Source: Advenella mimigardefordensis DPN7
Lineage (GTDB): Bacteria; Pseudomonadota; Gammaproteobacteria; Burkholderiales; Burkholderiaceae_B
Length of the DNA: 64,000 nt
Assembly: GCF_000521505.1 (NCBI RefSeq)
Contig: NZ_CP003915.1
Span: 1,488,001 to 1,552,000, forward strand
Reading direction: 5' to 3'
The position numbers were made by a program, and so were the translations under genes. The notes under the pieces are model-generated. The model ran no database searches. It was not told the DNA's origin and worked only from the letters and a program-made list of their open reading frames with translations. Positions 9,576-23,027 of the stretch are shown piece after piece; position 1 is the first letter of the stretch; the number at the start of each line of letters is the position of its first letter.

Positions 9576-12162
9576 TCAGATACCAACAGAATCGGCAATT
9601 TCCTTGAAGTCTTCGATCTGGTCGAAGTTCATATAGCGGTAAATGCTTTCGCTGTTTTTGTCGATGATACCCATGTCGGCCATGTATTCCTCGCGTGTTG
9701 GAATTTTGCCAAGACGTGAGCAGATCGCAGCCAGTTCAGCCGATCCCAGATACACGAAGGAATTTTTACCCAGGCGGTTGGGGAAGTTACGGGTACTGGT
9801 CGACATGACCGTCGCGCCTTCGCGAACCTGTGCCTGGTTACCCATGCACAATGAGCAGCCTGGCATTTCCATACGGGCACCGGCCACGCCAAGCACGCCG
9901 TAATGGCCTTCTTCTGTCAGCTGTTTCTGGTCCATTTTGGTTGGCGGCGCAACCCACAGTTTTACCGGAATATCGCGTTTGCCTTCAAGCAGCTTGGAAG
10001 CGGCGCGGAAGTGTCCGATATTGGTCATGCAACTGCCGATAAAGACTTCGTCGATTTTCGCGCCGGCGACATCGGACAGGGTTTTGACGTCATCCGGGTC
10101 GTTCGGGCAGGCCACGATAGGCTCGTGTACGTCGGCCAGGTCGATTTCGATGACCGCAGCGTATTCGGCGTCGGCATCGGGTTCGAGCAATTGCGGGTTG
10201 GCAAGCCAGGCTTCCATGGCTTTGATACGGCGGCCCAGAGAGCGCTCGTCTTCGTAACCATTGGCGATCATCCATTTGAGCAAGGTGATATTGCTGTTCA
10301 GATATTCGATAATGGGTTCTTTGTTCAGACGGACGGTACAACCGGCAGCAGAGCGTTCTGCAGATGCATCTGACAGCTCGAATGCCTGTTCGATTTTCAG
10401 ATCAGGCAGACCTTCGATTTCCAGAATACGGCCGGAGAAAATATTTTTCTTGCCCTGTTTGGCAACAGTGAGCAGGCCATCCTTGATGGCGTACAGCGGA
10501 ATGGCATTAACCAGGTCACGCAGGGTCACGCCGGGCTGCATTTTGCCTTTGAAGCGAACCAGTACGGATTCAGGCATATCCAGTGGCATCACGCCGGTGG
10601 CTGCGGCAAAGGCGACCAGACCGGAACCGGCAGGGAAGCTGATACCGATAGGGAAGCGGGTGTGCGAGTCACCGCCGGTACCCACTGTGTCGGGCAGCAA
10701 CATGCGGTTGAGCCATGAGTGGATGATACCGTCGCCGGGACGCAGTGCGATACCGCCACGATCACTGATGAAATCAGGCAGTTCGTGGTGCGTTTTGACG
10801 TCTACGGGTTTTGGATAGGCTGCGGTGTGGCAGAAAGACTGCATGACCAGGTCAGCAGAGAAGCCCAGGCAGGCCAGGTCCTTGAGTTCATCACGTGTCA
10901 TGGGGCCGGTTGTATCCTGGCTGCCTACTGAAGTCATTTTGGGCTCGCAGTAGGTGCCGGGGCGAACACCGGTGCCTTCTGGAAGACCACAGGCACGGCC
11001 GACCATTTTCTGGGCCAGTGTGTATCCTTTGCCTGAATTTGCAGGGTCAACCGGCAGGCGGAACAGGGTAGAGGCGGGCAGGCCCAGTGCTTCACGGGCT
11101 TTGGCGGTCAGGCCACGGCCGATGATCAATGGAATGCGGCCACCGGCACGCACTTCGTCAAACAGCACTTCAGATTTGACCTTGAATTCGGCGACGACAT
11201 TGCCGTCTTTCAGGGCTTTGCCTTCGTATGGGCGCAGTTCTACAACGTCACCCATGTTCATGTTGGAAACGTCCAGTTCGATCGGCAGAGCGCCGGCATC
11301 TTCCATGGTGTTGTAGAAAATGGGGGCGATTTTGCTGCCCAGACAGACGCCGCCAAAGCGTTTGTTCGGTACAAATGGGATGTCCTGGCCGGTAAACCAC
11401 AATACTGAGTTGGTAGCCGATTTACGTGATGATCCGGTACCAACAACGTCACCAACGTAGGCGACCAGATTGCCTTTTTCCTTGAGTGCATTCAATTGGC
11501 TGATAGGACCGATTTTGCCAGCCTCCTGAGGTTCGATACCTTCACGCGGGTTTTTCAGCATGGCCAGGGCGTGCAGCGGGATGTCCGGACGGCTCCATGC
11601 GTCGGGGGCGGGAGACAGATCGTCGGTATTGGTTTCGCCGGTGACTTTGAAAACGGTGATTGTCAGGCTTTCTGGCACTTCAGGGCGGCTGGTAAACCAT
11701 TCGGCATCGGCCCAGCTTTGCAGTACGGCCTTGGCGTTGGCATTGCCTTTTTCGGCTTTTTCCTGAACGTCGTGGAAGGCATCAAATACCAGCAGGGTTT
11801 TTTTCAATGCATCTGCGGCGATGGTACCCAGTTTTTCATTATCCAGCAGCTCGATCAGCGGGCTGATGTTGTAGCCGCCCAGCATGGTGCCGAGCAGTTC
11901 AGTGGCTTTTTCTTCGGAAATCAGCGGGCATTTTTTCGGTGCCGAAGGCGACGGCAGCCAGGTACGATGCCTTGACTTTGGCGGCATCGTCAACCCCTGC
12001 GGGGACACGGTGGGTCAGCAGGTCTAGCAGAAATGCCTCTTCCCCGGCAGGCGGTGCCTTGAGCAGCTCAATAAGCGCTGCTGTTTGCTGTGCTGAAAGA
12101 GGAAGTGGAGGGATGCCGAGCGCATCGCGTTCTGCGGCGTGCTGACGATAGGATTCCAACAT
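9576..12162 (-). pseudogene. acnB: Aconitate hydratase B (2-methylisocitrate dehydratase), frameshifted in this sequence
   Basis: Two minus-strand frames together encode a complete AcnB. Residues 1 to about 79 (MLESYRQHAAERDALGIPPL...) read from the ATG at 12162. The rest continues from 11930 in the neighbouring frame as [20 protein letters not shown] and onward to the stop at 9576. The break is at an A-run of six (plus-strand T6 at 11931-11936), where GAA-AAA-TGC-CCG would need five. With one A removed the protein is 861 residues, close to the usual 865. The downstream part has the FeS cysteines ([17 protein letters not shown]) and the swivel motif [12 protein letters not shown]. Without correction the product stops after 87 residues. 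The enzyme performs the main TCA aconitase step and often 2-methylaconitate hydration. A -10/-35 pair and an 18-bp palindrome lie upstream. Whether the lesion is real or a homopolymer error cannot be told from one sequence. Confidence 0.93.
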
Positions 12163-12209: not shown

Positions 12210-12238
12210 ATTATAAGGGTTTAGCACTATATTAGCAA
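12210..12238 (-). promoter_or_regulatory. Sigma-70-type promoter of acnB
   Basis: On the minus strand TTGCTA (12238-12233) is followed after exactly 17 bases by TATAAT (12215-12210), about 50 bases upstream of the acnB ATG. The -10 box matches consensus fully. Confidence 0.75.
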
Positions 12239-12256
12239 ATGTCTTATATAAGACAT
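12239..12256. promoter_or_regulatory. 18-bp perfect palindrome, putative GntR operator of acnB
   Basis: The sequence ATGTCTTATATAAGACAT is a perfect 18-bp palindrome that abuts the upstream edge of the acnB -35 box. A further half-site, ATAAGAC, follows on the plus strand. The same TCTTATATAAGA core occurs between mdh and the GntR gene at 18797-18808. I infer binding by that regulator; its position just upstream of -35 would fit activation or repression by blocking the polymerase. Confidence 0.7.
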
Positions 12257-12395
12257 AAGACTGACTTGATCCCACTGCAACAGGGGCAAAACCCGTTACA
12301 ATCTCCTTCCGCTGGTGCAGGGTTTGCAATTTTGTGTCAGGCTGACGGGAGTCTGTTGCGGTTTGCCGCCGCTTAACGAATCGTAAGGAAACAAA

Positions 12396-13358
12396 ATGGC
12401 CGGAAAAAAGTTCCCACTTGCCGTGGGCGTAGTTGCTGTGATCGCCGCAGGCGCCTGGTTTGGTGCTAACTACTATGCCAAAACCCAGGTTGAGGAAAAG
12501 CTCAACGCCTATCTGGTTGAAAACGACATGCAGAACAATGTGACCTGGGGTGCGCTGGATGCATCCATACTGGGCAGCGCTTCCCTGCATGACGTTAAAG
12601 TTGTGCGCAAAGACGATCCGGCAAAATTTCTGACCATTAAAAATGTCAAAGTGAATGATTTGCAGACCGGCAGCGACGATAAAAAAGTGGATTTTTCCTT
12701 CTCGGGTCTGGCCGATGAGACGGGCAATAGTCCGTTTAGCGCTGCCTTGAAGGAAAAGGCAGGCCAGTTGGGCTATGACAGCCTGCCGCTGCTGGACGGA
12801 CGGGTCAGGGGCACGCTGAATGAGAAACAGGATACCTCCGACTACGATATCACCCTGAATCAGCCCGAAGTGGGTAACTTCAACGTGGTGCTCAAGGCCG
12901 ACAAAATTGTCGGATTGATCAATACGGTTCGTACCCGTGAAAAAGAACTACAGTCCAACCCGCTGCTGCTGATCAGTGCGCTGTCGCCGGTGACCATAAG
13001 AGAATTGAACATCAAGTTTGATGACGCGGGGCTCATGCCACGCGTGGTTAAGGTTCAGCAGGGTGTGGCGCCGGTAGACGGCAATCCGACAGCGCAACAG
13101 AAAGAGGCGTTCGAAGCGCGTCTGGCCAAATCGGAAAGCGACTGCCGCCAGCAGGCTCCCACGCTTGGCATTGCGGATGCAGAAGGTGTATGTACGGCGG
13201 TCAGCCGTTTTATGAAAAACGAGGCCAGGAGCCTGAATGTGCAGGCCAGTCCCAATCCACCTTTGCAGCTTATGACATTCGTCATGCAAACGCAGATGGG
13301 CAATCCTCAGGGCATTCTTAAGGCAGTACAGCAACTGAATCTGAAAATCACCAACTGA
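12396..13358 (+). CDS. Membrane-anchored hypothetical protein (YdgA/DUF945-like layout)
   Basis: A 320-residue protein with an N-terminal hydrophobic anchor (residues about 5-24, PLAVGVVAVIAAGAWFGANY) and the rest predicted to lie in the periplasm. The body alternates beta-rich stretches (WGALDASILGSASLHDVKVV, then KVDFSFSGLADET) with two cysteines (CRQQAPTLGIADAEGVC) that could form a disulfide. The single anchor followed by repetitive beta strands resembles YdgA/DUF945 and AsmA-like envelope proteins, but I cannot assign a family firmly. The start has AAGGAAAC upstream of the ATG. It is divergent from acnB. Confidence 0.72.
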   Translation: MAGKKFPLAVGVVAVIAAGAWFGANYYAKTQVEEKLNAYLVENDMQNNVTWGALDASILGSASLHDVKVVRKDDPAKFLTIKNVKVNDLQTGSDDKKVDFSFSGLADETGNSPFSAALKEKAGQLGYDSLPLLDGRVRGTLNEKQDTSDYDITLNQPEVGNFNVVLKADKIVGLINTVRTREKELQSNPLLLISALSPVTIRELNIKFDDAGLMPRVVKVQQGVAPVDGNPTAQQKEAFEARLAKSESDCRQQAPTLGIADAEGVCTAVSRFMKNEARSLNVQASPNPPLQLMTFVMQTQMGNPQGILKAVQQLNLKITN

Positions 13359-13511
13359 TCAGCCTCGCACACCGGTCTGTGGTCCGCTGATAATGGCGGT
13401 TGTAAAAGGCTACGATCATGAGCGTCGCGCTTGTCGTCGTGGGGGGGCGGTGTTGCGTTGTTGAAGTGAGGACGGGGGGCAGCGCTCCCCCGCTGATTGA
13501 ATCATCTTGTG

Positions 13512-13592
13512 GTGAATCATCTCGTAGTGTCAACTCAAGGTGTCAACTCAAGGTGTCAACTCAAGGTGTCAACTCAAGGTGAATCATCTCGT
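13512..13592. repeat. Four 13-bp tandem repeats flanked by a 14-bp direct repeat
   Basis: GTGTCAACTCAAG occurs four times head to tail at 13527-13578 without a mismatch. The block is bracketed by two copies of GTGAATCATCTCGT (13512-13525 and 13579-13592), and a further partial unit GTGTCAACT follows the second flank. It lies between two convergent genes. The structure suggests replication slippage; no coding role is seen. Confidence 0.9.
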
Positions 13593-13606
13593 GTCAACTG
13601 CCTGAA

Positions 13607-13882
13607 TCAGGTGCGCAGCGGTTCCAGCTGCGGATGGCGCTTGAAGTAAGCGGCCGTGTAGCTACACACAGGATTGATTTTCCAGTTATTGGCACGTGCC
13701 AGGTCCAGTGCAAATTCGGTTAGTTTGCCGGCAATACCGCGCCCGCCGACCGCGTCGGGCACAATGGTGTGCAATACATGCATCACCGGCGCCTGCAGTC
13801 GATATTCTATATAGCATAGATTGTTGTCAACGTTGGCTTCGATGCGGCCTGTTTCGGGGTGGTGGGTAATCTGTAATGTCAT
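13607..13882 (-). CDS. Small GNAT-family N-acetyltransferase (YjdJ-type)
   Basis: A 91-residue protein that is mostly the short GNAT fold of PF14542 (YjdJ/Gtf2-like): TLQITHHPETGRIEAN, then YIEYRLQ, MHVLHTIVPDAVGGRGIAGK containing the acetyl-CoA loop, and the C-terminal NPVCSYTAAYFKRHP. Family members are about 90-100 residues; the acceptor is not known. An upstream GTG is in frame, but AAGGAG lies 5 bases before the ATG at 13882, which fixes the start. It lies 63 bases after the membrane-protein gene on the same strand and may share its transcript. Confidence 0.85.
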   Translation of the reverse strand: MTLQITHHPETGRIEANVDNNLCYIEYRLQAPVMHVLHTIVPDAVGGRGIAGKLTEFALDLARANNWKINPVCSYTAAYFKRHPQLEPLRT

Positions 13883-13945
13883 ATGCACTCCTTATCTGTG
13901 GGGCGACCGCGAACGCAAGGGGCGCTGCGACGCCGTAGCGGGCGG

Positions 13946-14341
13946 TTACTGGCGGCCCAGCAGCATCATGCTCCAGAAAATAATCATCAGCACGATACCC
14001 AGCAGGCATGCGCCCCACAGGCCGAGTAATGGCCAGCGGATGCGTAGCGGAACCGTTTTGGGGTTAACATGTGCCAGCAGGATATTGGCATGGCCGGCCA
14101 GCCATACGGTGCTGTTGGGCAGGAACAGACGCAAAAAATAATCCAGCAAAATCGCGCCGCGAATCCCCAGCGGATAGCGGTTAAACGGTTGTTGCGTCAG
14201 ATAGGGATGTTTAAGCGTGGCATTGGTTTCTTTGAGCGAGACGAATGCCAGATACAAAATAGAGACAGTGGCAATCACAAAACAGGCGACCAGCAGGCTC
14301 AGGATAAATGGCAGTGCGGTCGCGATATAAGGATGAAACAT
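13946..14341 (-). CDS. Small integral membrane protein, unknown function
   Basis: A 131-residue product starting MFHPYIATALPFILSLLVAC. It has a long N-terminal hydrophobic segment (about residues 5-35) and a second near the C-terminus (WPLLGLWGACLLGIVLMIIF), with a basic, polar loop between them. I do not recognise a named family. The frame is open upstream to 14506, but the ATG at 14341 is the first that gives a membrane-protein N-terminus; its ribosome binding site is weak, so the start is uncertain. It lies upstream of the GNAT gene on the same strand. Confidence 0.6.
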   Translation of the reverse strand: MFHPYIATALPFILSLLVACFVIATVSILYLAFVSLKETNATLKHPYLTQQPFNRYPLGIRGAILLDYFLRLFLPNSTVWLAGHANILLAHVNPKTVPLRIRWPLLGLWGACLLGIVLMIIFWSMMLLGRQ

Positions 14342-14553
14342 GGCAGCAGGATGGGATAACAAAAGTGATGGGCGAATCTGACAATAGTAAGCGAATTTTC
14401 CGGTAAGCAGGGTATGCGAAGCCCGCTGTGGCGATATTTCCTGCCAGGGCAGGGTCTTTTCAGAATGCTGCGCAATCGCGGCTCTGGTCTCGGCGCGCCG
14501 AAGCACCGGGCAGGCGCACCCTTGTGTTTTATCGCTCCGGTGCCTGCACTGCC

Positions 14554-16005
14554 TTAAATGACATACAAATCCATATACTCGTGGACCGGCATGGCTTCGA
14601 GCGTTTTCTGGTCCAGTGAAACGGCCAGAATGTTCTCCTGTTGTTTGCCCGGAAATGCGCGCGCCAGGTTGACGCGAAACTTGGCCTCCAGCAGTGGAAT
14701 GCCTTCCTTGCGGCGGCGCTTGTGACCTATCGGATATTCGCAGATCACTTCATCCAGTGTGCTGCCATCGTTCAATTGCACCGTGAGCGCATTGGCAATC
14801 GAACGTTTTTCAGGGTCATGATAATCGCGGGTAAACGCCGGATCTTCAACACAATTGATTTTCTCTCGCAAGGCATCAATGCGTGGATCGGCGGCAATCG
14901 TGTTTTCGTAGTCGCCCGCCGTGAGGCGACCTAGCAGCAGGGGCACGGCAACCATGTACTGAATGCAGTGATCGCGGTCTGCCGGGTTATTGAGTGGTCC
15001 TTTTTTATCGATGATACGGATGCACGCTTCGTGGGTACGGATGGTGATTTGCCTGATATCGTCGGCAGACTTGCCTGCCGCTTTCAGTTGATCGTGAATT
15101 TGCATGGCGCATTCAACGGCGGTCTGTGCATGGAATTCGGCCGGGTACGAGATCTTGAACAGTACGTTTTCCATGACGTAACTGCCATAGGGGCGCTGAA
15201 AGATAAACGGCTGTCCCTTGAAAAGCACATCATAAAAGCCCCAGGTTCTTGCGGTCAGCACCGATGGGTATCCCATCTCACCTGTTTTGGCCATCAGGGC
15301 CAGGCGTACGGCGCGACTGGTGGCATCGCCGGCCGCCCAGGATTTGCGGCTGCCGGCGTTGGGGGCGTGGCGATAGGTGCGCAGGCTTTGACCATCCACC
15401 CACGCCAGCGACACGGCGTTAATAATTTCGTCACGACTCAGTCCCAGCATTTGCGCGACCACGGCGGTAGAGGCCACTTTGACCAGCACCACATGATCCA
15501 GCCCGACTTTGTTAAACGAGTTCTCAAGGGCAATGCAGCCCTGAATCTCATGCGCCTTGATCATGCCCGTTAGCACCTCGCGCATGGTCAGCGCAGCCTT
15601 GCCTGCTGCTACCGCATTGCGTGACAGCCAGTCGGCCGTGGCCAGAATGCCGCCCAGGTTGTCCGAGGGGTGACCCCATTCTGCGGCAAGCCAGGTGTCA
15701 TTGAAATCGAGCCAGCGAATCATGGCGCCGATATTGAATGCCGCCTGTACCGGATCGAGCTGAAACTGCGTGCCCGGCACTTTGGCGCCATTGGGCACCA
15801 TGGTGCCCGGTACGATGGGGCCCAGCAGCTTGCGGCATGCCGGGTACTCAAGCGCCTCCAGCCCGCAGCCCAGCGTATCGATCAGGCAGTTGCGTGCCGT
15901 TTCATACGCCAGGTCGCTACTGAGTTCCTTGTAGAGAACGTAGTCGACAATATCGACAAGGACCTGATCGGGATCAGGGCGAACAGCAGAAACAGGGCCG
16001 GACAT
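14554..16005 (-). CDS. prpD: 2-Methylcitrate dehydratase PrpD
   Basis: A 483-residue MmgE/PrpD-family enzyme that dehydrates 2-methylcitrate to 2-methyl-cis-aconitate in the methylcitrate cycle for propionyl-CoA. Conserved segments include [20 protein letters not shown], the RWLDFNDTW motif, [12 protein letters not shown], the [20 protein letters not shown] region and [10 protein letters not shown] near the C-terminus. The chosen ATG at 16005 has GGGGGAG upstream; an in-frame start at 16038 lacks this. It follows prpC by 63 bases on the same strand, so the two form a prpCD unit. No prpB (methylisocitrate lyase) is present in the window. The neighbouring acnB could supply methylaconitate hydration. 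Confidence 0.95.
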
Positions 16006-16068
16006 AGCGCTCCCCCATAACAAAACAACAAGGTTCAAAACAACAAGGTTTTAACGTCCGCGCTGCCT

Positions 16069-17296
16069 TTATTTGCGTTTGGACAGCGGCACGAATTTCT
16101 GATCGTCCGGGCCGGTGTAATTGGCGGTCGGGCGGATGATCTTGTTGTCGATACGCTGTTCAATGATATGGGCAGACCAGCCCGCGGTACGGGCGATGAC
16201 GAACAGTGGCGTAAACATGGAAGTGGGAACGCCCATCATGTGATATGACACGGCAGAAAACCAGTCCAGGTTCGGAAACATCTTTTTGATGTCCATCATC
16301 ACGGTCTCCAGTCTTTCGGCGATATCGAACATTTTGGTTGTGCCGGCGTCCTGGGACAGTTTTTTTCGCGACTCGTTTGATCACGACATTCCGAGGATCA
16401 GAAATGGTGTAAACCGGATGACCGAAGCCGATAATGACTTCCTTGTTTTCCACGCGCTTGCGGATATCTGCCTCGGCTTCATCGGGGGTGTCGTAGCGCT
16501 TTTGGACTTCGAAAGCCACTTCGTTCGCGCCGCCATGTTTCGGGCCGCGCAGGGCGCCAATCGCACCTGTGATGGCAGAGAACATGTCTGAGCCTGTGCC
16601 GGCAACTACGCGGCCGGTAAAGGTGGAGGCATTGAATTCATGTTCTGCGTACAGAATAAGTGAGGTGTGCATGGCGCGAACCCATTCTTTTGATGGTTTT
16701 TCGCCGTGCAGCAAATGCAGGAAATGGCCGCCAATGCTGTCATCATCGGTTTGGACGTCAATGATGCGGCCATTGTGGCTGAAGTGATACCAGTAGAGCA
16801 GGGCCGAGCCCAGGCTGGCCATCAGTCGATCGGCGATATCACGGGCGTCAGCGATATTGTGATCGTCTTTTTCGGGCAGGGTGCAGCCCAGTACCGACAC
16901 GGCGGTTCGCATGACATCCATCGGGTGGCTATGGGCAGGCAGCGATTCCAGCACGGTTTGCAGATTGGCTGGCAGGCCGCGATAACGTTTCAGCTTCTGT
17001 TTGTAGGCCGTCAGTTCCGCTTGCGTTGGCAGTTTGCCATGGATAAGCAGATGGGCGATTTCTTCAAATTCACTGGAGTCGGCCAGATCGAGAATGTCAT
17101 AGCCACGGTAGTTCAGGTCGTTGCCGCTGCGTCCCACGGTGCAGATAGCCGTGTTGCCTGCAACCACGCCGGACAGGGCAACGGATTTTTTCGGTTTGAA
17201 TCCGGCGGGATTGTCCCCGCCGGCCAGTGTTGCGGCAGGGACTGGTGTGCTCGCGGACTTGCTGGCTTTTGCTGCCTTGGTTGATTTTGTAGACAT
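16069..17296 (-). pseudogene. prpC: 2-Methylcitrate synthase PrpC, frameshifted in this sequence
   Basis: The gene starts at an ATG (17296) with AGGAG upstream and encodes a type II citrate-synthase-fold enzyme that condenses propionyl-CoA with oxaloacetate. Catalytic His residues are in GPKHGGANEV and GFGHPVYTISD. After VVIKRVAKK the frame is lost at an A-run of seven (plus-strand T7 at 16360-16366) where six would keep the frame. The true C-terminus continues as [20 protein letters not shown], carries the catalytic Asp in NLDWFSAV, and ends FVPLSKRK at 16069. With one A removed the protein is 408 residues. As read here, translation ends at 16160 with about 70 unrelated residues and no catalytic Asp. 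The N-terminal Lys/Ala/Ser-rich stretch of about 35 residues is longer than in E. coli PrpC. Sequencing error and real loss are both possible. Confidence 0.93.
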
Positions 17297-17658
17297 AATG
17301 AATAATCTCCTGACGATTGTGAAATGTTATTTTTGCTGATGAACAGGGCGTCAAGCTTCTGTTCGAAATCGTGTTAACCAGTGCGATCATGCGGCTTATC
17401 GCGGGGTTGCATCTGGTCGATTATATGACTCAGCAGACCATCGCGAAGGATGGCGGTATAGACGTTCTTTGTCGTCTTCTATGTAGTACGAAAATCACGG
17501 CACGAAAAGCCGACAGTGGATACAGTACCACACCCACGTCGTTGCTGCCGGGTTCTGCTGCGCAGAGCAGTCGCGCCTGACCCGTTGGTTCGTGACTGCC
17601 TGTAGCAGGCTACAAGTTGTGTAATAGGTAGCAGGTAATGGGTAACGGGTAATAGGGC
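17297..17658. other. Intergenic region between prpC and the mdh terminator
   Basis: The region must contain the prpC promoter, because mdh ends in a strong terminator at 17659-17692. I see no copy of the TCTTATATAAGA palindrome found at acnB and mdh. The short hairpin GTAGCAGGCTAC lies at 17602-17613, and a 7-bp tandem repeat occupies 17626-17653. No convincing coding frame. Confidence 0.5.
17626..17653. repeat. Four 7-bp tandem repeats (RGGTARY)
   Basis: The consecutive units AGGTAGC, AGGTAAT, GGGTAAC and GGGTAAT abut the mdh terminator on its downstream side. The repeat is imperfect and short; function unknown. Confidence 0.6.
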
Positions 17659-17692
17659 AAAAAAATAGCCACGACGTCGTGGCTATTTTTTT
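17659..17692. terminator. Bidirectional intrinsic terminator after mdh
   Basis: A perfect 20-base palindrome, TAGCCACGACGTCGTGGCTA (17666-17685), is flanked by A7 on the left and T7 on the right. It lies 7 bases after the mdh stop and can terminate transcripts from either strand. Confidence 0.93.
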
Positions 17693-17699
17693 CAGTGGA

Positions 17700-18689
17700 T
17701 TAACCCAGCAGATCGGCAACGCCGTCGCGCTCTTCGAGCAACTCGTTCAGGGTAAAGTCCATGCGTTCACGGGAAAACTCGTTGATTTCCAGGTCTTTTA
17801 CAACCGTGTATTCACCGTTTTCTGTTGTGACAGGCACGCCGTAGATGATGCCTTCGGGAATGCCATAAGAGCCGTCAGAAGGAACACCCATGGTGACCCA
17901 TTTGCCATTGCTGCCCAGAACCCAATCACGGACGTGATCAATCGCTGCATTGGCTGCTGAAGCGGCTGAGGAAAGGCCACGTGCGTCAATGATGGCGGCG
18001 CCGCGTTTGCCTACGGTAGGAATAAAGGTGTCTTTGTTCCATGCGTCGTCATTGATAAGCTGTTCCAGACCTTCTCCACCAACGGTGGCAAAGCGGATGT
18101 CCGGGTACATGGTGGGTGAGTGGTTGCCCCACACGACCAGTTTCTCGATATCTTTAACAGCTTTGCCGGATTTTTGTGCCAGCTGGGTAAGCGCACGGTT
18201 ATGATCCAGGCGCAGCATGGCGGTGAAGTTTTTAGCAGGCAGATCCGGTGCGGATTTCATAGCGATATAGGCGTTGGTATTGGCAGGGTTGCCAACAACC
18301 AGCACTTTTACGTTGCGGCTGGCGACTTCATTCAGTGCCTTGCCCTGTGCTGTGAAAATCTGCGCATTCACTTTAAGCAGATCTTTGCGCTCCATGCCGG
18401 GGCCACGCGGACGGGCACCTACCAGCAGAGCAATATCAGCATCTTTGAAGGCTGTTTTCGGATCGCTGTGAGCGGTAATTTCCTGCAGCAATGGGAAAGC
18501 GCAGTCATCCAGTTCCATGATGACCCCTTTGAGGGCCTTTTGCGCTTTTTCATCGGGGATTTCCAGCAGTTGCAAAATAACAGGCTGGTCTTTACCGAGC
18601 ATTTCGCCTGATGCAATGCGGAAAAGCAGAGCGTAGCCGATCTGACCGGCGGCGCCCGTGACGGCGACGCGTACGGCGGGTTTGGACAT
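17700..18689 (-). CDS. mdh: Malate dehydrogenase
   Basis: A 329-residue NAD-dependent malate dehydrogenase of the long (cytosolic/chloroplast-like) group used by betaproteobacteria. It has the Rossmann motif [19 protein letters not shown], the mobile loop [13 protein letters not shown] with the substrate arginines, NPANTNAY, the LRLDHNRA aspartate and the catalytic histidine in [11 protein letters not shown]. It oxidises malate to oxaloacetate. The ATG at 18689 is chosen because GGAG precedes it by 6 bases; the frame extends only to a TTG upstream. It is divergent from the GntR regulator, and the shared 177-base region contains palindromic operator-like sequence. A perfect terminator follows. 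Confidence 0.96.
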
Positions 18690-18749
18690 AGAGATCTCCA
18701 ATAAATTAGGGGAAAAAAACGAAGGTATTTGAAGAGATTTTAACGCTAA

Positions 18750-18778
18750 AGCTTAGTAGAAATCTGCGGTATCGTCAA
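18750..18778 (-). promoter_or_regulatory. Candidate promoter of mdh
   Basis: On the minus strand TTGACG (18778-18773) is followed after 17 bases by TAAGCT (18755-18750). The -35 box is good and the -10 box poor. A half-site TTATAAGACA ends 2 bases upstream of the -35 box, nearly the same arrangement as at acnB, where the gap is 1 base. Confidence 0.5.
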
Positions 18779-18818
18779 ATTGTCTTATAACTTATATCTT
18801 ATATAAGAATAGACAATT
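18778..18818. promoter_or_regulatory. Composite operator between mdh and the GntR gene
   Basis: AATTGTCT (18778-18785) and AGACAATT (18811-18818) form a perfect outer inverted repeat. Inside lie a half-site TGTCTTATAA (18781-18790) and the 12-bp palindrome TCTTATATAAGA (18797-18808), which is identical to the core at acnB. It overlaps a candidate gntR promoter (TAGACA at 18810-18815, 18-base spacer, GATAAT at 18834-18839), which would allow autoregulation. Regulator identity is inferred from location. Confidence 0.7.
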
Positions 18819-18866
18819 CTGCTTGCAATATGAGATAATAAGCAGGTTTTAATTTGTTCGCCGAAC

Positions 18867-19622
18867 ATGTCTGAAATCCCAACCCCTTCGTTGAAATCGC
18901 CTGCTGCGGCATTCAGCCCTCTATATAAACAGATCAAGGACCTGCTGGTTCATAGTCTGCACGAAGGCGAATGGAAGCCTGGTGAAAACATTCCCAGCGA
19001 GCTCGATCTGGCAGCGCGCTTTCAGGTGAGTCAGGGTACCGTGCGTAAGGCGATAGACGAGCTGGCGGCAGAGAATTTGCTGATCCGTCGTCAGGGCAAG
19101 GGAACATTTGTTGCTACGCACCATGAAGCACAGGTTCGCTATCGTTTTTTAAGGTTAAAATCCGATAGCGAAGAAAGTGCGGCGCGCGCCCAAAGCGTCT
19201 ATTTGCAGTGTGATCGCCAGCGTGCACCGCAGGATGTGGCTCGTGTGCTTATGCTGCGCGGCAGCGATTCGGTGATTTATATCCGGCGTATCATGTCTTT
19301 TGGTACGGTACCGACGGTACTGGACGAAATCTGGCTGCCGGGAGATGCGTTCAAAGGCTTGAGTATTGAAAAGCTCCAGGCTCTGAACGGCCCGCTTTAC
19401 GGTTTTTTTGAAACTGAATTCGGTGTGAATATGGTTCGTGCCGATGAAAAACTCAAGGCCGTATCCTGTGATCCCACGACTGCCGAACTGCTGAAAGTTG
19501 AACCGGGTACGCCGCTGCTGCAGGTTAATCGCGTGTCGTTTACCTATGGGGACAGGCCCATGGAGATTCGGCGCGGTTTATATGTAACAGAACATTATCA
19601 TTATCGAAATGGTTTAAACTAA
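18867..19622 (+). CDS. GntR-family regulator (HutC/UTRA type), putative TCA regulator
   Basis: A 251-residue transcription factor. The N-terminal winged helix-turn-helix is typical GntR (YKQIKDLLVHSLHEGEWKPG, then PSELDLAARFQVSQGTVRKA and RQGKGTFVA), at about residues 18-85. The C-terminal UTRA-like ligand domain (about 95-248) includes YIRRIMSFGTVPTVLDEIWL and a final HYHYRNGLN. UTRA domains bind small metabolites; the effector is unknown. The gene lies between mdh and sdhC, divergent from mdh. Palindromes shared by its own promoter region and the acnB promoter suggest it controls mdh, acnB and itself, and perhaps sdh by read-through. No terminator is evident before sdhC. Confidence 0.9.
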   Translation: MSEIPTPSLKSPAAAFSPLYKQIKDLLVHSLHEGEWKPGENIPSELDLAARFQVSQGTVRKAIDELAAENLLIRRQGKGTFVATHHEAQVRYRFLRLKSDSEESAARAQSVYLQCDRQRAPQDVARVLMLRGSDSVIYIRRIMSFGTVPTVLDEIWLPGDAFKGLSIEKLQALNGPLYGFFETEFGVNMVRADEKLKAVSCDPTTAELLKVEPGTPLLQVNRVSFTYGDRPMEIRRGLYVTEHYHYRNGLN

Positions 19623-19727: not shown

Positions 19728-20141
19728 ATGTCAGACACCCCGTCAAAACAGCGCCCGCAATATCGTAATATCGATGTTGCCCAGATCACAAAATACCACC
19801 TGCCGGCCGCCGGCAAAGTGTCTATTTTGCATCGAATCAGTGGCGCTCTGCTTTTTCTCAGTCTTCCCATTATATTGATTCCGCTTTTTGCAGCCAGCGT
19901 GGCTTCGCCGGAAAGCTTCGCATCATTGGGCAGTGGGGCGGGTGGCTTCATTCTCAAGCTGATCCTGCTGGTTCTGCTGTGGGGTTTCATGCATCACCTG
20001 TGTGCCGGTATCCGCTATCTGGTTCTTGATCTGCATATCGGTATCGACAAGGTCTCGGCACAGAAAAGCGCCGCCGTGGTGTTGGGAGTCAGCCTGGCGC
20101 TGACCCTGGTGTTCGCCGTTAAAATGTTTGGAGCGATCTGA
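19728..20141 (+). CDS. sdhC: Succinate dehydrogenase cytochrome b556 subunit
   Basis: A 137-residue membrane subunit that anchors succinate dehydrogenase and helps bind heme b and ubiquinone. It has the quinone-site motif SILHRISGALLF near residue 32 and three hydrophobic segments (about 37-58, 72-95 and 112-134). HHLCAGIRYLVLD in the second segment carries the heme-ligand histidine. AGAGG precedes the ATG. The stop TGA overlaps the sdhD ATG by one base, so translation is coupled. It is the first gene of sdhCDABE-gltA. Confidence 0.95.
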   Translation: MSDTPSKQRPQYRNIDVAQITKYHLPAAGKVSILHRISGALLFLSLPIILIPLFAASVASPESFASLGSGAGGFILKLILLVLLWGFMHHLCAGIRYLVLDLHIGIDKVSAQKSAAVVLGVSLALTLVFAVKMFGAI

Positions 20142-20518
20142 TGGCCAAGGAACTGGTAGGTACAAAACGGCTGGTTGTGGGTGCCGGCTATGGTATTAAG
20201 GATTTCATCGTACAGCGTATTACAGCCGTGATTCTGGCTGTGTATTCAGTCATTTTTCTGATTGCAGCGCTGTTTACGCCCATTAACTACGAATCCTGGA
20301 AGGGTTTCTTTACGTTCTCCTGTTGGGGCTTGCCCGTGGGGCAGATCGCCGCAACGCTGGCATTTTTCTCGCTTGCCTGGCATGCGTGGATCGGCGTGCG
20401 CGATATCTGGATGGATTACGTCAAACCCGTAGGTGTCCGACTGACGTTACAGGTACTCACTATCCTGTGGCTGATTGCCGCCGTCCTGTATTTCGCAAAA
20501 ATTGTCTGGAGTTTATAA
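20141..20518 (+). CDS. sdhD: Succinate dehydrogenase hydrophobic anchor subunit
   Basis: A 125-residue, three-helix membrane protein. The first helix follows GIKDFIVQRITAV; the second ends in WHAWIGVRDIWMDYVKPVG, which holds the expected heme-ligand His and the quinone-site Asp-Tyr; the third is TLQVLTILWLIAAVLYFAKI. It pairs with SdhC to form the membrane domain of complex II. The start codon overlaps the sdhC stop. sdhA follows 3 bases later. Confidence 0.94.
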   Translation: MAKELVGTKRLVVGAGYGIKDFIVQRITAVILAVYSVIFLIAALFTPINYESWKGFFTFSCWGLPVGQIAATLAFFSLAWHAWIGVRDIWMDYVKPVGVRLTLQVLTILWLIAAVLYFAKIVWSL

Positions 20519-20521
20519 GCC

Positions 20522-22300
20522 GTGGTCGCTATCAATTCATCATTACCGCGCCGCCAGTTTGATGTAGTGGTTGTAGGTGCCGGCGGGTCCGGTATGCGCT
20601 GCTCCCTTCAATTGGCTCAGGCCGGATTATCCGTCGCCGTCCTTTCCAAGGTTTTTCCAACCCGTTCTCATACCGTTGCCGCGCAGGGTGGTATCGGTGC
20701 TTCGCTGGGTAACATGAGTGAGGATAACTGGTACTGGCACATGTACGATACCGTCAAGGGATCAGACTGGCTGGGCGACCAGGACGCCATCGAATTCATG
20801 TGCCGTCAGGCGCCTCATGCTGTTTACGAGCTCGAACACTTCGGCATGCCGTTCGATCGCAATGCCAACGGCACCATTTATCAGCGTCCTTTCGGCGGAC
20901 ACACTGCCAATTTCGGTGAGAAGCCCGTACAGCGTGCCTGTGCTGCAGCTGACCGTACCGGTCACGCGCTGCTGCATACCCTGTATCAGCGCAACGTCGC
21001 TGCGCGTACCCAGTTCTTCGTCGAATGGATGGCGCTGGATCTGCTGCGTAACGATGCCGGCGATGTCGTGGGTGTGACCGCGCTCGAAATGGAAACCGGT
21101 GAAGTCTACATTCTGGAAGCCAAGGCTGTGGTGCTGGCTACCGGTGGCGCCGGCCGTATCTGGCAAGCCTCTACCAACGCCTTCATCAATACCGGCGATG
21201 GCCTGGGCATGGCTGCCCGTGCAGGTATCTGTTTGCAGGACATGGAATTCTGGCAGTTTCACCCAACCGGCGTGGCCGGTGCCGGCGTGCTCATTACCGA
21301 AGGGGTGCGCGGCGAAGGCGGCATCCTGTTGAACAAGGATGGTGAGCGTTTCATGGAACGTTACGCGCCAACCCTGAAAGATCTGGCACCACGCGATTTC
21401 GTCTCGCGCTCCATGGACCAGGAAATCAAGGAAGGCCGTGGCTGCGGTCCCGACGGCAGCTATGTGGTGCTCAAACTGGATCACCTGGGTGCGGATGTCA
21501 TTAACAAACGTCTGCCTTCGATTCGCGAAATTGCTATCAAATTCGGTAACGTGGATCCGATCAAGGAACCGATTCCTGTGGTCCCAACCATTCACTATCA
21601 GATGGGCGGCATTCCGGCCAACTATCATGGTGAAGTGGTTACCTGGGAAAATGGCGAAGAAAAAATCGTCAACGGTCTGTATGCCATTGGTGAATGTGCT
21701 GCGGTATCGGTTCACGGTGCAAACCGTCTGGGCACAAACTCACTGCTGGATCTGGTGGTGTTTGGCCGCGCTGCAGGCAACCGGATTGTGGAATCGCATC
21801 TGGAACGTCAGCTCGCCCATCAGGATCTGCCTAAGGAATCATTGGACTTCTCGCTGGCGCGTATCAATGAACTGGAATCGCGCAAATCAGGCGAGAAAGT
21901 TCAGGATGTCGCAAACAGCATCCGTGTTTCCATGCAGCGTCACTGCGGTGTGTTCCGTACGCTCGAACTGCTGAAGGAAGGCGTCGGCCAGATCGACGAG
22001 CTGGCTGAGCAGGCCAAGCATGTCAAGTTTGATGACAAATCCAAAGTATTCAATACGGCGCGTGTCGAAGCGCTGGAACTGGCCAATATGACGGAAGTGG
22101 CCCGGGCGACGATCAAGTCTGCGGCAAACCGCAATGAAAGCCGTGGCGCCCATGCGTTGAACGATCATCCTGAGCGTGACGATGTGAACTGGCTCAAGCA
22201 CACCTTGTGGCATTCTGCCGACGGTCGTCTGGAGTACAAACCAGTACATATGAAACCGCTAAGTGTGGAGTCGTTCCCTCCAAAAGCACGTACATTCTAA
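20522..22300 (+). CDS. sdhA: Succinate dehydrogenase flavoprotein subunit (GTG start)
   Basis: A 592-residue flavoprotein that oxidises succinate to fumarate. The dinucleotide motif VVVGAGGSGM lies near residue 16, and RSHTVAAQGG holds His50, the likely covalent FAD attachment site. Substrate-site residues appear in FHPTGV, in GVRGEGGILLNKDGERFMERY and in the C-terminal HGANRLGTNSLLDLVVFG. GTG at 20522 is the only start before the conserved N-terminus; GGAG lies 11-12 bases upstream, within the end of sdhD. sdhE, encoding the flavinylation factor, is in the same operon. Confidence 0.97.
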   Translation: MVAINSSLPRRQFDVVVVGAGGSGMRCSLQLAQAGLSVAVLSKVFPTRSHTVAAQGGIGASLGNMSEDNWYWHMYDTVKGSDWLGDQDAIEFMCRQAPHAVYELEHFGMPFDRNANGTIYQRPFGGHTANFGEKPVQRACAAADRTGHALLHTLYQRNVAARTQFFVEWMALDLLRNDAGDVVGVTALEMETGEVYILEAKAVVLATGGAGRIWQASTNAFINTGDGLGMAARAGICLQDMEFWQFHPTGVAGAGVLITEGVRGEGGILLNKDGERFMERYAPTLKDLAPRDFVSRSMDQEIKEGRGCGPDGSYVVLKLDHLGADVINKRLPSIREIAIKFGNVDPIKEPIPVVPTIHYQMGGIPANYHGEVVTWENGEEKIVNGLYAIGECAAVSVHGANRLGTNSLLDLVVFGRAAGNRIVESHLERQLAHQDLPKESLDFSLARINELESRKSGEKVQDVANSIRVSMQRHCGVFRTLELLKEGVGQIDELAEQAKHVKFDDKSKVFNTARVEALELANMTEVARATIKSAANRNESRGAHALNDHPERDDVNWLKHTLWHSADGRLEYKPVHMKPLSVESFPPKARTF

Positions 22301-22310
22301 GCAGGGTATT

Positions 22311-23027
22311 ATGAGTACAAAACGTATCATGAAATTCGAGATTTACCGCTACGATCCTGATAAGGACGAGCGTCCCTACATGCAGAAACTGGAAGTGGAA
22401 CTGCAACCCACCGACAAGATGCTGCTCGATGCCATTATCCGCATCAAGAATGACGTTGATGACAGTTTTGCCATTCGTCGTTCCTGCCGCGAGGGTGTGT
22501 GTGGCTCCGATGCCATGAACATCAATGGCAAGAACGGTCTGGCATGTACAACCAATCTGAATGAGCTGAAGGAGCCTGTGGTTCTGCGTCCGCTGCCTGG
22601 TCTGCCGGTTATTCGCGACCTGATCGTTGATATGACGCACTTCTTCAACCAGTATCATTCTGTTCGCCCGTATCTGGTCAACGACACGCCGCCGCCGGAA
22701 AAAGAGCGTCTGCAATCGCCGGAAGCCCGCGAAGAGCTCGATGGTTTGTATGAATGTATTCTGTGTGCGTGCTGCTCGACTTCCTGTCCGTCTTTCTGGT
22801 GGAATCCTGACAAATTTGTCGGCCCTGCCGGATTGCTTCAGGCTTACCGGTTTATTGCAGACAGTCGTGACGAGGCTACTAACTCCCGTCTTGACAATCT
22901 GAATGACCCGTACCGTCTGTTCCGTTGCCATACCATTATGAATTGCGCCGATGTATGTCCTAAAGGGCTGAATCCGACCAAGGCAATTGGCAAGATCAAG
23001 GAACTGATGGTTCGTCGCGCGGTCTGA
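22311..23027 (+). CDS. sdhB: Succinate dehydrogenase iron-sulfur subunit
   Basis: A 238-residue protein that passes electrons from FAD to quinone through three clusters. The [2Fe-2S] cysteines are in SCREGVCGSDAM and LACTTN; the [4Fe-4S] cysteines in YECILCACCSTSCPS; the [3Fe-4S] cysteines in RCHTIMNCADVCPKG. The frame opens at 22263 inside sdhA, but the ATG at 22311 gives the normal N-terminus (MSTKRIMKFEIYRYDPDKDE) and has AGGG upstream. It follows sdhA by 10 bases and precedes sdhE by 6. Confidence 0.97.
   Translation: MSTKRIMKFEIYRYDPDKDERPYMQKLEVELQPTDKMLLDAIIRIKNDVDDSFAIRRSCREGVCGSDAMNINGKNGLACTTNLNELKEPVVLRPLPGLPVIRDLIVDMTHFFNQYHSVRPYLVNDTPPPEKERLQSPEAREELDGLYECILCACCSTSCPSFWWNPDKFVGPAGLLQAYRFIADSRDEATNSRLDNLNDPYRLFRCHTIMNCADVCPKGLNPTKAIGKIKELMVRRAV

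Follow-up and report, generated by a model that had tools for sequence, protein, structure and literature searches.

The window considered here, a stretch of 64,000 nucleotides of the Advenella mimigardefordensis DPN7 genome (contig NZ_CP003915.1, positions 1,488,001 to 1,552,000), contains two exact copies of the 12-mer TCTTATATAAGA, one upstream of the aconitase gene acnB (12242-12253) and the other between the malate dehydrogenase gene mdh and a divergent gene for a GntR-type regulator (18797-18808). These palindromes are very probably (roughly 0.87) operators of that regulator, SdhR, which would control its own gene, probably together with sdhCDAB, as well as mdh, acnB, icd, aceA and three further targets at the level of the genus. 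Binding by SdhR would account for the form of the sites, their conservation, their co-occurrence with the regulator, the set of genes that they precede and the regular arrays of half-sites found at several of them. A preliminary description of the window, made from the sequence alone, had taken the palindrome for the operator of the clustered GntR protein and for the mark of a tricarboxylic acid (TCA) cycle regulon, a reading that conservation, co-occurrence and a published motif support; regulator and motif are, however, already in print as SdhR, and the reading is largely anticipated rather than new.

The sites and their probable regulator

The first copy of the 12-mer lies at the centre of ATGTCTTATATAAGACAT, a perfect palindrome of 18 bp (12239-12256) directly adjoining the -35 hexamer of acnB (TTGCTA, 12238-12233), as had been described. 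The second is accompanied by extra half-sites between mdh and the regulator gene (18783-18808), of which one had been described; they are one-sided, with three TCTTAT-like units in a row, and ACTTAT at 18790-18795 is a one-mismatch copy of the half-site TCTTAT. In both operators the extra half-sites are set in steps of exactly 7 bp. The distances from half-site to -35 hexamer had been given as 2 bases at mdh and 1 at acnB and need correction, since the 6-bp half-site ends 4 bp away at mdh and 3 bp away at acnB, figures that vary with the choice of half-site boundaries.

Exact copies of the 12-mer are far too frequent to be accidental. Seven occur in the 4.76-Mb genome, where Markov models of orders 1-3 built on the window predict 0.02-0.05, a more than 100-fold excess (0.0003-0.0007 are expected per 64 kb), and the reversed control pattern has no exact copy in this genome. 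The picture at up to two mismatches is different: the two sites in the window compare with a mean of 0.67 in shuffled sequences, 12 of 100 of which reach two, so the count is not unusual, and the genome holds 72 such sites against 154 for the reversed control. The two-mismatch counts are thus uninformative and the signal resides in the exact copies; two-mismatch sites were only counted, and degenerate sites were dropped as targets. The counts at two mismatches are what would favour chance, or a plain AT-rich promoter feature, as the origin of the motif, an explanation that is extremely improbable and, for exact copies, already refuted: besides their excess here, they are about 30-fold more frequent than the control in genomes that encode SdhR (158 versus 5 copies), and they hold their position at orthologous promoters.

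The regulator contains a GntR DNA-binding domain and a UTRA domain, which places it in the HutC subfamily; the domain search thereby confirms the UTRA ligand domain proposed for it before. In the passages of Suvorova et al. (2015, PMC4494728) that concern it, SdhR is listed as a HutC-subfamily regulator with the operator TCTTATGTCTTATATAAGACATAAGA, a palindrome with additional symmetry, and is named as an exception to the operator type of the subfamily, with a paper of 2012 about the catabolism of malonate and propionate as the source. Of the 26 positions of this motif, 23 agree in the acnB site and 19 in the mdh/sdhR site; in 80 relatives the median match is 23/26 and the minimum 19/26. Moreover, the gene adjoins sdhC, and the site sits upstream of the sdhR-sdhCDAB unit. 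The assignment of the window's regulator as SdhR is thus supported by motif, subfamily and neighbourhood. HutC proper, the histidine utilisation repressor, was rejected, as the protein scores 114.1 bits against a TIGR02018 cut-off of 220, and so was the GT-N4-AC operator type of the HutC subfamily, since the acnB site reads GTCTTATATAAGAC.

Conservation of the site next to the regulator is nearly complete. When public genomes were scanned with an alignment built from ten regulators, at least 565 relatives were confirmed, of which the best 80 were kept; by record title, their loci come from Burkholderiales genomes or metagenome-assembled genomes, a few being titled only as beta- or Proteobacteria. 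The motif stands upstream of sdhR in all 80 (74 exact, 6 with one mismatch), and a divergent mdh is found in 78, the other two being short loci in which no mdh was found. The sites also follow the regulator from genome to genome. The comparison took in 61 genomes from the genus, family and order to which the window belongs; 48 of them were scored as positive for SdhR (a hit at E 1e-40 or better, a cut that missed at least three divergent SdhR-like genes, in G039, G048 and G056), and 44 of these 48 carry at least one exact site. The 13 genomes with no clear regulator hit hold five exact sites, versus four for the control; three of the five lie at the mdh/sdh locus, where the genome encodes a more distant SdhR-like protein, and the real background is therefore even smaller.

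This distribution bears on the possibility that the palindrome is the site of another factor controlling the mdh/sdh region, with the adjacency of the GntR gene incidental. The genome also encodes, at another locus, a related regulator with 37% identity, and no binding experiment on SdhR was found among the literature matches listed; both would leave room for such a factor. It is nevertheless very improbable, given that exact sites track the presence of SdhR across the 61 genomes, that every kept relative has a site at the regulator's own gene, and that the motif is assigned to SdhR in the passages of PMC4494728.

Targets in this genome and in relatives

Four of the seven exact sites in this genome lie at icd, acnB, mdh/sdhR and aceA (L001 to L004), and the other three precede genes for a chromate-transporter family protein (L005), a membrane-bound pyrroloquinoline quinone (PQQ)-dependent dehydrogenase (L006) and an AbrB-family membrane protein (L007). 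Many unrelated copies of the motif, which would have spoken against a regulon, are thus absent. The further targets that had been suggested fared unevenly: icd has an exact site, gltA has no site with fewer than three mismatches, and sucC, fum and acs have no exact site, all seven being accounted for, although weaker sites at these three genes were not looked for. Upstream regions within the window were also rejected as targets for gltA, sdhC, prpC and prpD, where the best sites have 3, 5, 4 and 5 mismatches, respectively. The site at the PQQ-dependent dehydrogenase gene also has a divergent gene, read as tctC-like. Within the genus, the fully read genomes contain sites of the chromate-transporter (chrA) type in five cases, of the AbrB type in four and of the PQQ type in two; these three targets are therefore genus-level and not confined to one strain. 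As a separate observation, the chromate-transporter sites (L005, L046, L070, L078 and L104) have long symmetric flanks whose two sides change together, with TTCAAG..CTTGAA and TTTAAG..CTTAAA as variants, and L046 forms, by eye, a 36-bp perfect palindrome.

The target survey covered all 96 exact sites of 31 fully read genomes; 12 of the remaining 30 genomes lack exact sites, and the other 18 have 67 sites that were read partly or not at all (for example, 3/6 in G006 and 1/6 in G002). In the surveyed set, 72 of the 96 sites precede genes of the TCA cycle or the glyoxylate shunt: mdh/sdhR (26), acnB (15), aceA (13), icd (12), acnA (3), malate synthase (2, of the A and G types) and monomeric isocitrate dehydrogenase (1). 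Three of these lie far from the start codon, at aceA (L210, 622 bp), malate synthase G (L051, 390 bp) and monomeric isocitrate dehydrogenase (L097, 237 bp). Two small groups of exact sites were noted by eye in addition. Three (L042, L047 and L054), in three genomes, are beside apparent siderophore or iron genes named from their translations, which could reflect chance or a link to iron through aconitase. Two more (L090 and L091), in two related genomes, stand directly 5' of the ribosome-binding site of a small LuxR-type helix-turn-helix protein.

Several results weigh against the regulon as drawn here. No binding or expression data on SdhR were found among the literature matches listed, and 4 of the 48 SdhR-positive genomes have no exact site. 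In the surveyed set, 24 of the 96 exact sites lie outside TCA and glyoxylate genes; 11 of these belong to the chromate-transporter, AbrB and PQQ genes, and the last 13 include one each at a dctP-type solute-binding protein gene, nuoA and atpI, the others being without evident link and one lying within a uvrC-like frame. None of the six one-mismatch sites of this genome (L008-L010 and L113-L115) precedes a TCA gene, the neighbours being named by eye, and four of them (L009, L010, L114 and L115) overlap longer open frames. Furthermore, among the 28 kept loci in which the acnB start could be located, only 6 have an exact site there and 22 have none at up to three mismatches. By title, the six belong to genera of the Alcaligenaceae type or close to it, and most of the 22 to the Comamonadaceae. 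Because of these 22 loci, the link to acnB is limited by lineage and looks like a lineage-specific recruitment. Finally, the arrays at acnB, mdh, sdhR and aceA lie just upstream of the -35 hexamer, a placement that would suit an activator as well as a repressor.

Comparison with published systems places the regulon further. The published SdhR has the same motif with added outer symmetry and belongs to the same subfamily, and its name, like the neighbourhood here, points to sdh; a difference is that the extra half-sites of the window's mdh/sdhR operator are confined to one side. The passages on SdhR in PMC4494728 give no target list, and acnB, icd, aceA, acnA and chrA may already be part of the published regulon. 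What is added here is how widely the site is conserved, which targets it has in the family and the two operator designs described below. PdhR and PsrA of Shewanella, according to passages of PMC5343134, were likewise recruited to control several TCA operons, but they are different regulators, whose operators were not compared. No experimentally studied TCA-specific regulator of Burkholderiales was found among the literature matches listed. The set described here would offer a testable regulon that spans the steps of citrate, isocitrate, succinate and malate as well as the two branches of isocitrate use, together with a well-defined operator code and a ligand domain of solved structure. Moreover, the recruitment of acnB, icd and aceA, and of the chromate transporter and the PQQ dehydrogenase in one genus, suggests that a local regulator can become a pathway regulator.

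Two operator designs and the mode of control

The sites fall into two designs. One is a ladder of half-sites in 7-bp steps beside the -35 hexamer, seen at acnB, mdh, aceA and acnA; the other, at icd and chrA, is a plain palindrome close to the likely transcription start. Placements relative to transcription starts are predictions from promoter-like elements. At the mdh/sdhR locus, half-sites were counted with up to one mismatch in 79 loci, comprising 70 unique contexts (L196, at a contig edge, was excluded): of the 70 contexts, 67 have an extra half-site at a gap of exactly 1 bp towards mdh and 23 have one towards sdhR, every other gap giving counts of 0-2. In the 96-site set, a ladder is present at acnB in 15/15 sites, at mdh/sdhR in 22/26, at aceA in 10/13 and at acnA in 3/3, versus 1/12 at icd, 0/5 at chrA, 0/4 at AbrB and 0/2 at PQQ. 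Grouped together, this is 50/57 against 1/23 (Fisher p ~1e-12, for groups chosen post hoc and uncorrected for kinship); the 16 sites outside the test include two ladders, and the sites of monomeric isocitrate dehydrogenase and both malate synthases have none.

In the proposed mechanism, SdhR dimers would read the inverted half-sites TCTTAT|ATAAGA. The array of acnB, mdh and aceA, like that of acnA in relatives, continues in additional half-sites at exact 7-bp steps and ends near the -35 hexamer, and the site of icd and chrA is a plain palindrome close to the likely start. SdhR would be autoregulated and would probably repress by blocking RNA polymerase at the -35 hexamer or the start region, with repression lifted by a negatively charged TCA intermediate, a tricarboxylate. 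Repression is somewhat favoured as the mode of action, as GntR/HutC proteins are mostly repressors. A less probable, though serious, alternative is that SdhR is an activator, or a dual regulator that activates from ladders beside the -35 hexamer and represses where plain palindromes lie near the starts of icd and chrA.

The promoters divide the evidence between these modes. The separation of ladders from plain sites is itself what a dual regulator might leave, and the acnB promoters show a fixed edge that would fit activation. In 17 acnB promoters, the extra half-site is distal to the core in 7 (G013 and six from the genus of the window) and proximal in 10. In 12 of the 17, the script's best -35 is of the TTGC type and is separated from the last half-site by 3-4 bp (13 if an overlapping hexamer one base on is counted in L102). 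Thus, where this spacing holds, the acnB dyad shifts by 7 bp and the ladder edge stays fixed at the promoter. The -35 of aceA is poor by eye, which would also suit activation. At icd, 13 of 14 promoters have a -10-like element, TAMACT, whose end falls anywhere from 7 bp ahead of the core to 1 bp inside it (a count without shuffle control), no convincing -35 was seen in the icd promoters, and at chrA, by eye, TACAAT ends 5 bp before the core in 5/5.

Other promoters do not conform, and four acnB promoters (L063, L087, L093 and L112) lack a TTGC-type -35 at the ladder edge. At mdh, 66 of the 80 kept loci have TTGAC no more than 24 bp from the core (2% in shuffles; L196, an empty row, is one of the 14 misses), but the distance varies by several bp (7-13 bp, once 18), which fits an activator less well. 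The AbrB sites are plain and yet, by eye, have their core about 47 bp before TACAAT, which shows that a plain site need not be at the start and that design and placement do not fully coincide. Moreover, the grouping of sites was post hoc, left 16 sites outside and drew on related genomes. A bolder proposal, which is doubtful, makes SdhR a dual-mode master switch at the citrate/isocitrate node, where ladders would drive acnB, mdh, sdh and aceA one way and plain palindromes would drive icd (and chrA) another. If so, one tricarboxylate signal would choose between full oxidation and the glyoxylate shunt, and the Alcaligenaceae ladder would have grown or shifted in whole 7-bp steps with its promoter edge held fixed.

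Effector domain and neighbouring genes

The best solved relative of the regulator is 3cnv, a UTRA domain from a putative member of the GntR family. It is close to the UTRA domain of Bordetella petrii SdhR over all 162 residues (310 bits, E 1.1e-91) and is, in effect, an SdhR ligand domain, although the depositors' name carries no function. DasR and NagR (YvoA), HutC-type proteins that respond to sugar phosphates, are called repressors in passages of PMC4918961, which also report the effector-pocket residues of DasR, including two phosphate arginines. They have the domain layout and about half of the named pocket residues in common with SdhR. In the alignment, SdhR keeps R142 of DasR, one of the two phosphate arginines (as R141), and also Y177, E193, R221, E232 and Y238. 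In contrast, the phosphate-binding R144 of DasR is missing, the position being mostly Leu and otherwise Gln, Met or Lys, an invariant arginine of SdhR (R235) stands where DasR has V234, and the SdhR operator, unlike those of DasR and NagR, is not of the GT-N4-AC type. R141, R191, R222, R235, E194, E233 and Y178 are invariant in all 80 SdhRs, and the equivalent of Y238 is kept in 78. This pocket, with its invariant arginines R141, R191, R222 and R235, suggests a ligand that is anionic but not a sugar phosphate. The preferred guess, a tentative one, is citrate or isocitrate, because AcnA/AcnB, Icd and AceA, the enzymes by which these two acids are interconverted and used, are the shared targets besides mdh/sdh.

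The features surrounding the two operators are collected in the table below. The promoter of mdh was absent from the output of the promoter scan. The 105-bp gap between sdhR and sdhC has no site of its own, the best having five mismatches, so sdhC is likely to lie downstream in the same transcript as sdhR; gltA comes after the sdh open reading frames.

Table 1. Predicted operators, promoters and genes at acnB and mdh/sdhR, in window coordinates.
Feature	Position	Strand	Details
acnB operator (predicted)	12239..12260		half-sites TCTTAT 12242-12247, ATAAGA 12248-12253, ATAAGA 12255-12260
mdh/sdhR operator (predicted)	18783..18808		TCTTAT 18783-18788, ACTTAT 18790-18795, TCTTATATAAGA 18797-18808
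acnB promoter (predicted)	12210..12238	-	TTGCTA 12238-12233, 17-bp spacer, TATAAT 12215-12210; promoter scan
acnB (aconitase B)	9576..12162	-	start codon 12162; two frames, broken after 87 codons in the assembly
mdh promoter (probable)	18750..18778	-	TTGACG from 18778, 17 bp, TAAGCT; read by eye
mdh (malate dehydrogenase)	17700..18689	-	start codon 18689
sdhR promoter (predicted)	18810..18839	+	TAGACA from 18810, 18 bp, GATAAT; promoter scan
sdhR	18867..19622	+	GntR/HutC-type regulator with UTRA domain, 251 aa
sdhC	19728..20141	+	begins 105 bp after sdhR
sdhD, sdhA, sdhB open reading frames	20141..23027	+	named from gene order and translations

Some of the neighbouring genes seem to be interrupted. 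The acnB frame (region 11900-12162) meets its early stop in this assembly and is open for at least 473 codons in G001, G003, G005, G006, G008 and G009; in G007 it stops at 300 codons, in a genome where several other genes are also broken. A run of T lies near the break in the window, which may be a sequencing slip or reflect a truly broken gene. A gene for an uncharacterised 320-aa protein without NCBIfam match (12396-13358) is divergent from acnB, also adjoins it in G001, G003, G006, G007 and G009, and may share the acnB operator region. In a prpC-like gene (16160-17296), the match to 2-methylcitrate/citrate synthase ends at residue 313, and a stretch of seven T lies close to the point at which the reading frame breaks off; a prpC paralogue of A. 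mimigardefordensis DPN7T at another place, MIM_c13200, is mentioned in passages of PMC5373536. Lastly, short tandem copies of ggtgtcaactcaa occupy an intergenic stretch at 13530-13600.

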